DNA from: a virus | IMG/VR virus record: IMGVR_UViG_3300008738_000029 | Coordinates: 1 to 21,109 of that record | Length of the DNA stretch: 21,109 bases | Reading direction: 5' to 3' (one strand) | Part shown: positions 16,207 through 19,368 of the stretch, in pieces | Layout of the letters: the number at the start of each line of letters is the position of its first letter | Numbering within the stretch: the stretch's first letter is position 1 | The notes under the pieces: model-generated | What the model saw: the letters and a program-made list of their open reading frames with translations, nothing else | What the model was told of the DNA's origin: nothing | Databases searched by the model: none | Translations under genes and position numbers: made by a program

Positions 16207-16448
16207 GTTTAGATAATAACAGATATTCTCTGAGAAGACAAGTAAAAGTATTTGCATAATTGTAGAATCCATGTTATTTTAACTCTTGAAGAGAGGGTAA
16301 AGACTATAATTAATTATTATTCTTTTTAATCCTTTAAAGACCTTTAATAAGATAGCTCGGATAAACTTTCAATGTTTCCTTATAATGATGATGAATGGGA
16401 TTTTATTTCTAATAATAAATCCTAATTTCATAATTTTGCTCTTTACGT

Positions 16449-16498
16449 GGGGGTGGGGTATATATAGGAGGGACCCTAGAAAATTTTTCCCCTCCCCC
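16449..16498. repeat. G-run/C-run inverted repeat upstream of the small terminase
   Basis: GGGGGTGGGG (16449-16458) and CCCCTCCCCC (16489-16498) are mirror partners with only the central T opposed to T. The 30-base interval contains TATATATA, AGGGACCCT and AAAATTTT. In DNA this AT-rich the island is conspicuous. It lies about 240 bp upstream of the small terminase start, where packaging sites often occur. The function is not known. Confidence 0.6.
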
Positions 16499-16526: not shown

Positions 16527-16552
16527 TTGAGAATAATTCTCAATCTCAATTA
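16527..16552. promoter_or_regulatory. Fur-box-like palindrome TTGAGAATAATTCTCAA
   Basis: A perfect 17-bp palindrome with 7-1-7 core TGAGAAT-A-ATTCTCA. This is close to the Fur consensus TGATAAT-N-ATTATCA and to the GAGAAT variants found in many Proteobacteria. It is the most symmetric member of a motif repeated at 16589, 17693, 17748, 17770 and 17792. Whether a Fur-type or a phage regulator binds is unknown. Confidence 0.45.
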
Positions 16553-16637
16553 GGATATGCTAAAATTTCCCAAACCTTATTCAGCTGCGAATGAGTCGCA
16601 TTTGCAATTTACCTATTTCCCTAAATAAAAAAAATAA

Positions 16638-16681
16638 ATCTACATAAAATCTACATAACTTTTCTATTTTATATTTATAAT
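16638..16681 (+). promoter_or_regulatory. Candidate promoter P1 with tandem 11-bp units
   Basis: Units ATCTACATAAA (16638-16648) and ATCTACATAAC (16649-16659) are followed by TATAAT at 16676-16681. The 17 bases between 16658 and the TATAAT put the repeats at the -35 position, which itself has no TTGACA. The same unit pair occurs at P2 and P3 upstream of other transcription units. It would drive the 63-aa gene at 16767. Confidence 0.5.
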
Positions 16682-17123: not shown

Positions 17124-17384
17124 TTATACTAGTTTTGAAGAATTATCCACAATAGTCGTAGCATAATTGTCTATACTATCTTGGCTAACTTTTTTATATT
17201 CAAGACTTTGCATAAATCTATTAATATGTCTGCTTGTAGTTACTGAATGGAATTGTTCAGTTATAAAGTTGTAGCCATTAGCTGAAATAATAGCGACAGG
17301 TGTTTCATAACTAAATAGTATTTGTGAACCATTCGGAACAGTTATAACATTTTGATTATGCTTTATTGGTTTAAGTTTAATCAT
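17124..17384 (-). CDS. Conserved small phage protein, SYETPVA...HIN type (86 aa)
   Basis: Key segments are VITVPNGSQILFSYETPVAIIS, GYNFITEQFHSVTTSRHINRFM and a C-terminal Ser/Asp-rich tail. The pattern of LFSYxTPVA followed by TTSxHIN is familiar from short proteins widespread in phages (DUF8033-like). Their role is not established. AAGG is positioned nine bases before the ATG. It is read leftwards, converging with the 63-aa gene, and has its own strong terminator. A 31-codon frame lies just upstream. The last codons include TTATCCACA on the plus strand, a DnaA-box sequence, possibly by chance. Confidence 0.75.
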   Translation of the reverse strand: MIKLKPIKHNQNVITVPNGSQILFSYETPVAIISANGYNFITEQFHSVTTSRHINRFMQSLEYKKVSQDSIDNYATTIVDNSSKLV

Positions 17385-17388
17385 GTCA

Positions 17389-17484
17389 TTACCTTCTACT
17401 AGTTTTATATTTAAAACTTTTATCAGTTCCTATCACATACTTAACAATATATCTGATTCGGTCACCTGTTAAAGTTTTTCTCAT
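17389..17484 (-). CDS. Possible 31-aa basic peptide upstream of the 86-aa gene
   Basis: ATG at 17484 opens a frame for MRKTLTGDRIRYIVKYVIG and twelve further residues, ending five bases before the next ATG. It is basic and looks protein-like, and it lies exactly between P2 and the 86-aa gene. There is no clear ribosome site, and the candidate -10 of P2 would place transcription start at about the ATG itself. It may be a leaderless gene or just a leader. Confidence 0.35.
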   Translation of the reverse strand: MRKTLTGDRIRYIVKYVIGTDKSFKYKTSRR

Positions 17485-17490
17485 AGTTTT

Positions 17491-17547
17491 AATATACTAT
17501 CTCATTATGTAGATTTTATATAGATGTTATAGAGATTTTATAAAGAG
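17491..17547 (-). promoter_or_regulatory. Candidate promoter P2 with four tandem 11-bp units
   Basis: On the minus strand four contiguous 11-bp units read CTCTTTATAAA, ATCTCTATAAC, ATCTATATAAA and ATCTACATAAT (17547 down to 17504), followed by TATATT (17496-17491). The last two units differ by one base from the pair in P1. It faces the 86-aa gene, opposite to P1. Confidence 0.5.
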
Positions 17548-17618
17548 AACAAACCATGAACAGGACCAGAAGTATATCACACTTTTATGAATATTTTATG
17601 GAGATTTAATTTAGATTT

Positions 17619-17730
17619 CGTGGACATTGTAAAAGTTATATCGTGGACATTGTAAAAGTTATGAACGTGGACATTGTAAAAGTTACACTTGCGAATGATT
17701 ATCAGTCTCAATCGTGGACATTGTAAAAGT
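17619..17730 (+). repeat. Four direct 18-bp iterons CGTGGACATTGTAAAAGT
   Basis: Identical 18-bp copies begin at 17619, 17642, 17666 and 17713; the first three extend to 20 bp with TA. Start spacings are 23, 24 and 47 bp, so the last gap is two units long and one position is occupied by the Fur-like motif instead. Spacing near two helical turns suits cooperative protein binding, as in plasmid-type origins or repressor arrays. Confidence 0.85.
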
Positions 17731-17813
17731 CCTGCATAAGGGCCTGTGATTAAGTCTCACTTGCATTGCGACTAACTCTCATCTGCATTGCGAATGGTTC
17801 TCATTCCCAAGTC
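17693..17813 (+). repeat. Fur-like 22-bp motif: one dispersed and three tandem copies
   Basis: GAATGATTATCAGTCTCAAT starts at 17693, between iterons 3 and 4. Three tandem 22-bp copies follow at 17748, 17770 and 17792, starting GATTAAGTCTCA, GACTAACTCTCA and GAATGGTTCTCA. All fit GAnTnAnTCTCAnnYnCA. Two more copies are at 16531 and 16589. Flanking TTGC/GCGA bases recur. Confidence 0.65.
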
Positions 17814-18310: not shown

Positions 18311-19009
18311 ATGAGATTAAAAGAAACACACAAAGCAATAGTAAATGCTACTAGTTTATATGCTGATAGCCAATTTACAATAAGAGATGTTACTAATTAT
18401 TCACCTCGAGTATTGAAGTTAAGTACTAATGTTAAACTTGGCAAGATAGTTAAGAGAGGTAAACATAAAGGTAAACGTATACTTACATTAACACTTATTG
18501 AGAGAGAAACATGCACCAATGAATGTGAGCATTACACCACCTGCTATGGAAATAACATGCCATTTGCTCATAGATTTGAAGTGAATGAAGTATTCATGAT
18601 GAGACTTGAAAGTGATATAGAATATTATGTAAAGAAATATCCCAAAGGTATACTAATAAGATTGCATGTACTAGGTGATTTCAATTCTATACAATATGTA
18701 GAGTTTTGGAATAGAATGTTACATACCTATAGTAGCATAGCTATTTATGGATATACTCGTAATCATATTACAAGTAAGTATGAATATATACGAGCAATAG
18801 GATATAAGATTATTGCAATAAGAAACATACATAAAGATAGATTTGCAATAAGATTTAGTAATAAATTAGATGATGAGTTTAGTGCCAATAGTAGAGATAT
18901 AACAAGCAAAGGTATAACATGCCTTGCTCAAGTTAAAGCAAGTGTATCTTGCTCTGATTGTACTCTATGCTGGGCAAGTAAAAAACCTATAGGTTTTATA
19001 ACACACTAA
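18311..19009 (+). CDS. Gp88-family Cys-rich phage protein (232 aa)
   Basis: Core motifs: TLTLIERETC (59-68), C68-x3-C72-x5-C78 in CTNECEHYTTCYGNNMPFA, RLHVLGDF (117-124), and IYGYTR (145-150). A second Cys cluster is C204, C214-x2-C217-x2-C220. This is the pattern of the mycobacteriophage Gene 88 family, found in many phages and of unknown function. The paired Cys clusters suggest a metal site, perhaps an Fe-S cluster. A distant relation to radical-SAM-like Gp37/Gp68 proteins is a speculation. Length is usual for the family and nothing is missing. GAGGTG supplies the ribosome site within the upstream gene. Confidence 0.8.
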   Translation: MRLKETHKAIVNATSLYADSQFTIRDVTNYSPRVLKLSTNVKLGKIVKRGKHKGKRILTLTLIERETCTNECEHYTTCYGNNMPFAHRFEVNEVFMMRLESDIEYYVKKYPKGILIRLHVLGDFNSIQYVEFWNRMLHTYSSIAIYGYTRNHITSKYEYIRAIGYKIIAIRNIHKDRFAIRFSNKLDDEFSANSRDITSKGITCLAQVKASVSCSDCTLCWASKKPIGFITH

Positions 19010-19064
19010 TAATACATAACATCTACATAAAATATACATAATTGTATGCTACTACTAACATAAT
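19010..19064 (+). promoter_or_regulatory. Candidate promoter P3 with tandem 11-bp units
   Basis: Units TAATACATAAC, ATCTACATAAA and ATATACATAAT (19010-19042) are followed by CATAAT at 19059-19064. The distance from 19041 to CATAAT is 17 bases, the same as in P1. It begins directly after the Gp88-family stop codon and would start transcription near 19071, ahead of the ATG at 19087. Confidence 0.5.
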
Positions 19065-19086: not shown

Positions 19087-19368
19087 ATGAAAAATAAATT
19101 TGGTAAATCTAAAGACATTGACAATGCATATGCTACATACCTTACTATCAATGAAGAAAATGGTATGTACTTTGAATGGAAAATTTTAAAGACATATCAG
19201 CATAAAGATAATGAGGACAAGAATGGATATGCTAGATGGTTTACTGCATGTAAATCACCTATGACACATGACAGATGGGAGTATGGAGATGCTTACATTA
19301 GAGATATAATGGACACAAAACCTATGCGAACATCAGCAACTAAAGAATGGAGAGAAACCTATGCTTAA
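19087..19368 (+). CDS. Hypothetical protein (93 aa)
   Basis: A polar protein containing NAYATYLTINEENGMYFEWKILKTYQ, GYARWFTACKSPMTHDRWEYGDAYIRDIM and a Thr/Glu C-terminus. Trp and Tyr content is high. AAAGGA is seven bases before ATG 19087. An in-frame TTG at 19042 lies inside P3 and is not a credible start. It is the first gene after P3 in a run of small genes. No domain is recognised. Confidence 0.7.
   Translation: MKNKFGKSKDIDNAYATYLTINEENGMYFEWKILKTYQHKDNEDKNGYARWFTACKSPMTHDRWEYGDAYIRDIMDTKPMRTSATKEWRETYA

Follow-up and report, generated by a model that had tools for sequence, protein, structure and literature searches.

Tandem 11-bp repeats at candidate promoters of a marine phage lineage match the consensus site of a BaeR-type response regulator

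The window analysed here is the whole stretch of 21,109 nucleotides of the virus record IMGVR_UViG_3300008738_000029. It contains four arrays of two to four tandem 11-bp units each, with the consensus ATCTNCATAAA; all four are intergenic and each reads toward the next gene, and the chance expectation for unit pairs was 0 (100 dinucleotide shuffles). The array lengths are those reached when the 11-bp register was followed outward from each array. The arrays, the genes behind arrays b and c and the candidate −10 elements are as follows.

16638..16659, plus strand: array a, two units ATCTACATAAA-ATCTACATAAC, 5' of a 63-codon gene (ATG at about 16767)
16670..16675, plus strand: TATATT, invariant in five phages and 13 nt downstream of the 18-nt box; the conserved −10 candidate of site a
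16676-16681, plus strand: TATAAT, the −10 chosen for site a in the earlier note; the corresponding hexamer is variable among relatives
17124..17384, minus strand: gene of an 86-aa phage protein of unknown function (PHROG 5643), the second to follow arrays b and c
17389..17484, minus strand: 31-codon ORF MRKTLTGDRIRYIVKYVIGTDKSFKYKTSRR, the first of the genes that follow arrays b and c; conserved in L060 and L007
17491..17496, minus strand: TATATT, −10 candidate of site b, exactly 10 nt downstream of the 18-nt box
17504..17547, minus strand: array b, four units CTCTTTATAAA-ATCTCTATAAC-ATCTATATAAA-ATCTACATAAT
17571..17576, minus strand: TATACT, extended −10 candidate of site c (TG one base before it), exactly 10 nt downstream of the 18-nt box; TATAAT in L060
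17584..17616, minus strand: array c, three units ATCTAAATTAA-ATCTCCATAAA-ATATTCATAAA
19010..19042, plus strand: array d, three units TAATACATAAC-ATCTACATAAA-ATATACATAAT, between a gene ending at 19009 and a gene starting at 19087
19059..19064, plus strand: CATAAT, the −10 proposed for site d in the earlier note; GACAAT in L060

The earlier note had reported three unit pairs, and all of them were recovered, at 16638 (plus strand, 0 mismatches in 21 bases), 17525-17505 (minus strand, 1 mismatch) and 19021 (plus strand, 1 mismatch). However, the second pair is part of a four-unit array (17547-17504, minus strand), the third is part of a three-unit array (19010-19042, plus strand), and the three-unit array at 17616-17584 (minus strand) had been missed. 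Arrays b and c form two candidate tandem promoters facing the 31-codon ORF and the PHROG 5643 gene, and array d faces the gene starting at 19087. The ATG of the 31-codon ORF begins 6 nt after the −10 candidate of site b, as it also does in L060, which predicts a leaderless mRNA. The locus 5' of the PHROG 5643 gene is a hypervariable gene slot, occupied in the window by the 31-codon ORF and in L012 (3248-3712), L011 (1447-1944) and L077 (1916-2362) by diverged proteins with a common GGRP..VNxN-like region; the L012 protein is weakly HTH/MerR-like in Pfam.

Several other repeats were found in the window. Directly beside array c lie four iterons CGTGGACATTGTAAAAGTT (17615-17735; spacing 23, 24 and 47), with the variants ACAACGTCCACGA in L012 and CAACGTCCATATATC in L077, which are possibly a replication origin or an operator. 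It is extremely unlikely that the 11-bp arrays are themselves replication-origin iterons rather than promoter elements: arrays b and c do adjoin the four iterons, but arrays a and d and those of L012 and L011 are located at separate gene starts in a consistent orientation. Repeats of 22-23 bp like TGCGAATGATTATCAGTCTCAAT were found six times at 16528-16608 and 17690-17811, including three in tandem at 22 bp, and many times on both strands of L060. Their best match to the Fur box was 15/19, and the 7 matches were barely above those in shuffles (mean 1.7, maximum 6). An element around ACGTGGGGGTGGGGTATATATA 5' of terS (16414-16480) is kept in the relatives L007, L011, L012, L060 and L077, which diverge in other places, and may possibly be a late promoter or packaging site. 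In addition, a repetitive open frame at 600-1600 carries 12-bp tandem coding repeats CACCAGTTACAT, a repeat type shared with the tail-region gene of the 59-kb relative (L096, 17749).

For comparison with relatives, 80 related marine viral loci from a TerL-based retrieval were scanned with a matrix of the unit pair, which detected arrays in L006, L007, L008/L060, L009, L011 and L012. Sites in the window and its close relatives scored 16-33 bits, compared with at most 12 bits in Markov sequence of twice the size; a lone 13.4-bit match in L040 is probably due to chance. Including a weak extra site of L007, the alignment comprised 14 arrays with 38 units from seven phage contigs, and every array was directed toward the next gene, so that the orientation described in the earlier note was borne out throughout. 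Orthologues of array a were present in L006, L007, L060 and L009, and that of array d in L060 (225-246, minus strand). The array b orthologue in L060, read by eye, continues as AACTATAGACA-GTCTACATATT and thus also has four units, followed 10 nt on by the −10-like TACAGT and, 6 nt after that, by an ATG. At site c, the three units of the window correspond to two in L060, and the distance to the −10 element (TATACT and TATAAT, respectively, both extended by TG) is the same; unit number in orthologous arrays therefore shifts by whole 11-bp steps while the −10 distance is kept. No arrays were detected in L014 and L077 (59 kb), which have homologous genes, nor in the known phages HTVC027P, HTVC023P, DSL-LC04 and half of 023Pt_psg01, and a DNA search of the intergenic region against known phages gave no match. 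A strict de novo search for period-11 repeats in the relatives returned nothing and missed the known arrays too, hence it was uninformative. Among viral contigs, the motif was confined to this phage clade.

Within the 38 units, T4, A7 and A10 are invariant, C3 and C6 are kept in 31 and 30 units, respectively, position 5 is free, and G is absent from every position. The arrays are AT-rich, with AAAA every 11 bp 5' of −10 elements, as would be expected of phased A-tracts, that is, curved or UP-element DNA aiding RNA polymerase without a specific protein. The conservation of C3, T4 and C6, the strand asymmetry seen in the lack of G and the orientation of the box are unexpected from mere curvature, and make this explanation very improbable.

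We then considered the promoter elements downstream of the arrays. According to the earlier note, a −10 hexamer lies exactly 17 bases after the unit pair at two sites, and TATAAT (16676) and CATAAT (19059) do follow the 21-bp pairs at this distance, but neither hexamer nor spacing is conserved. In the aligned site a orthologues of five phages, the box and the downstream TATATT at another spacing are kept, and the next hexamer reads CATAAT, CATGAT, CATCTG or CATATT; the CATAAT of site d is not conserved either, because L060 has GACAAT. An offset of 10 nt between the box and the −10 candidate was present at sites b and c, but not at site a, where it is 13 or 19 nt, nor at site d. The spacing is larger in L011 and L012, where 32-33 nt separate the array from the −10 candidate, which places the array roughly two helix turns farther upstream. 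A consensus scan for sigma-70-type pairs (TTGACA-like and TATAAT-like, −35 at 16-18 nt from −10) found none across the arrays; the exception to the missing −35 is the left array of L011/L012, which is followed by TTGACA. The lack of TTGACA described earlier thus holds at most sites, whereas the alternative sigma factor offered with it is not needed, because several sites have TATAAT, TATACT or TATATT as −10 elements. In the lambda CII and T4 MotA promoters, the activator site replaces the −35 element. The phage arrays are similar in having a predicted activator site in place of the −35, although CII and MotA are phage-encoded and recognize other sites (TTGC-N6-TTGC and the MotA box).

The same box was found in bacterial genomes. 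Scanning 84,980 bacterial and archaeal genomes with ATCTNCATAAHATCTNCATAA yielded 92 stretches, and 80 of these loci (L100-L179) were examined. While 27 of the 80 exact copies lay within open frames of at least 100 codons, 52 were intergenic with enough flank, and 22 of these 52 had a hexamer matching TATAAT in at least five of six positions exactly 10 nt past the 18-nt box, compared with a mean of 1.6 and a maximum of 7 in shuffled flanks. Phage sites b and c share this offset with the bacterial copies, and the E. coli phoA Pho box likewise lies 10 nt from its −10. Among the 30 loci with a −10-like hexamer (at least 4/6) at that offset, six encode an OmpR/PhoB-family response regulator (Response_reg plus Trans_reg_C) within the next three genes. 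Other genes after the bacterial copies resemble, by eye, heavy-metal ATPases, Spy/ZraP-type proteins and an ABC transporter, and one type is FtrD-like by Pfam; boxes with a −10 at 10 nt also precede CcdA-like and CwlO-like genes, mainly in Clostridia and Campylobacterota. Judged from gene content, the bacterial box set looks like a broad stress regulon, and the downstream genes would suit regulation by envelope or metal stress.

These bacterial regulators pointed to a particular recognition helix. Alignment of the six operon regulators revealed an invariant Asn in the helix HI[KR]N[IL]R, at a position where RegX3 and MtrA have Arg. PhoB also has Arg at this position. When all OmpR-family regulators within the fetched bacterial loci were considered, 10 of 11 carried HI[KR]N[IL]R, compared with Asn in 0 of 17 members of an alphaproteobacterial set chosen for similarity to the six (Fisher p about 8e-7, which is only a guide because the counts include some orthologues). 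E. coli BaeR (PDB 4b09) has the helix DRTIDSHIKNLRRKLE, containing HIKNLR with the same Asn. The published BaeR consensus, compared only after the helix had been seen, is TCTNCANAA with the conserved core CTNCA (Yamamoto 2008 and Nishino 2005, as quoted in PMC3799227). It occurs letter for letter within the phage unit ATCTNCATAAA, and the phage boxes repeat the unit TCTNCANAA, with its core CTNCA, at least twice in direct orientation, 11 bp centre to centre. In the spy upstream region of E. coli K-12, where the best single unit was TTCTCCATAAT, the phage matrix ranked TTCTTCATAATCTCTGCAAAAT, two copies of TCTNCANAA 11 bp apart, first among the pairs, at a score of 16.4 bits that is yet below the highest of 500 shuffles (21.0; mean 0.7). 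The BaeSR system (spy, mdtABC and acrD in E. coli) is thus similar to the phage sites in its unit, in the tandem spy copies 11 bp apart and in the HIKN-LR helix encoded beside the bacterial copies, but differs in that the phage arrays are AT-rich, have up to four units and stand at several promoters, and the mdtA and acrD sites score poorly with the phage matrix. Since bacterial promoters beside OmpR/PhoB-family regulators carry this box too, at a fixed distance from the −10, and the unit equals the published BaeR consensus, the earlier description of the motif as phage-specific is not supported.

The geometry of the arrays supports the same family. The sites of OmpR/PhoB-family regulators are 18-bp boxes in which a direct repeat occurs twice with an 11-bp period, and they often have 3-5 repeats; ArcA arrays have 2-5 (PMC3798270). 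The phage arrays fit in period, number and stepwise growth, and share with ArcA/OmpR sites the two-repeat 18-bp box and the extended arrays; the sequence differs, and ArcA sites have no fixed promoter position, whereas the phage arrays at sites b and c do. On these grounds the arrays are probably real, conserved promoter boxes of the OmpR/PhoB-family kind. The ArcA example is relevant also to the idea that the boxes are operators, at which the regulator represses or both represses and activates, since this OmpR-family member mostly represses from arrays of 2-5 repeats (PMC3798270). The phage arrays overlap or abut the promoter, and the extended −10 of site c might do without an activator; against this stand the 10-nt box-to-−10 spacing, fixed at sites b and c as in bacteria, the lack of a −35 at most sites and the uniform orientation, which leave repression decidedly unlikely. 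An activator binding the tandem repeats is the best explanation, because the direct-repeat box is promoter-linked and directional and most sites have no −35. The earlier note's proposal of a promoter class whose activator recognizes direct repeats spaced by one helix turn is accordingly supported as a prediction.

Regulation of phage promoters by a host regulator has a precedent in the cyanophages S-PM2 and P-SSM2, whose Pho boxes are controlled by host PhoB according to gel shift and transcriptomics (PMC10976474). The present phage would be alike in that a host regulator from the OmpR/PhoB family acts on its promoters; it is unlike them in the regulator and in the box, which is PyTTAAPyPyT/A in marine cyanobacteria, and the evidence from it is that of sequence. 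Control by host PhoB itself, for which this precedent (PMC10976474) and the common geometry (7+4, 11-bp period, 10 nt to the −10) could be cited, is highly improbable. The TGTCA/TGTAA core is missing, the units read CTNCAT without G, the SAR11 pstS Pho boxes read TTGTAAC-AAAA-CTTTAAC, unlike the phage unit, and the regulators beside the bacterial copies have Asn instead of the PhoB Arg.

For the packaging and capsid genes, the closest relatives were in SAR11 and roseobacter phages and in one 'Gammaproteobacteria' phage (33-56% identity), and the capsid protein shared 55.8% identity with the phage assigned to Gammaproteobacteria and 53-54% with pelagiphages. As the capsid is about equally close to both, a non-SAR11 host is possible. 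A SAR11 host regulon was considered and rejected, as 297 genomes held no exact copies of the box, and a search with up to two mismatches gave many control matches; the BaeR helix was absent from the non-PhoB OmpR-family regulators of SAR11 that were examined. In other alphaproteobacteria, 15 of 385 genomes matched at one mismatch, with few control matches and no clear regulon, and a further order of 32 genomes gave one match. Matches were present in 10 of 257 gammaproteobacterial genomes, mostly within genes.

A DNA-binding regulator conserved with the motif, which the earlier note had proposed to look for, was not found: no Trans_reg_C (OmpR-type C-terminal) domain was detected in the 21-kb window or in 12 related contigs, including the array-less 59-kb one, and the HTH-type genes differ between L011 and L012. 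This result bears on the alternative that a phage-encoded DNA-binding protein, OmpR-like or of an unrelated fold, activates the phage's own promoter class. Such a gene could sit in the remainder of the genome, of which the window covers 21 kb, and the restriction of the motif to one clade among viral contigs would suit it. However, L011 and L012 both have arrays despite their different HTH-type genes, window-type phages lack these genes at that locus, and the box is identical to a known host-regulator site, so that we regard a phage-encoded activator as unlikely, though the strongest of these alternatives.

The reading that we favour, with a confidence just above even, is that the arrays are bound by a response regulator of BaeR type within the OmpR/PhoB family, and that this is most likely the envelope-stress regulator of the host. 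From the arrays and their bacterial counterparts we infer binding of the regulator in the phage, its host origin, activation and the trigger along the following lines. Each 11-bp unit would take up one phosphorylated monomer of the regulator, in head-to-tail arrangement. At sites b and c, the final pair of units would stand in for the −35, directly upstream of the −10 element (class II activation, as at Pho boxes), whereas in L011 and L012, with the array about two helix turns farther up and the left array having its own TTGACA, activation would take place from upstream. Envelope damage sensed by the host cell, perhaps caused by the infection itself, would then turn on one early phage operon and a handful of small phage genes located between the early and the structural cluster. 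It is a more tentative suggestion, held at somewhat less than even confidence, that an uncultured marine phage lineage has in this way wired several promoters to a host BaeR-type regulator and that its genes respond to envelope damage.

In the papers searched, no phage promoter under BaeR-type control was described, and the known cases of host regulators acting on phage promoters mainly concern PhoB in cyanophages. The present comparison suggests a mechanism known in kind and new in form, with a BaeR-type box at phage promoters. If true, BaeR-type control would couple phage transcription to envelope stress, with superinfection, lysis or membrane damage as possible signals. It would also offer a clue to the hosts of uncultured phages, as phages with promoter boxes for a given regulator should have hosts that possess that regulator, and a rule linking box to helix, TCTNCAT going with HIKN-LR, that can be tested in a widespread group of response regulators in bacteria.
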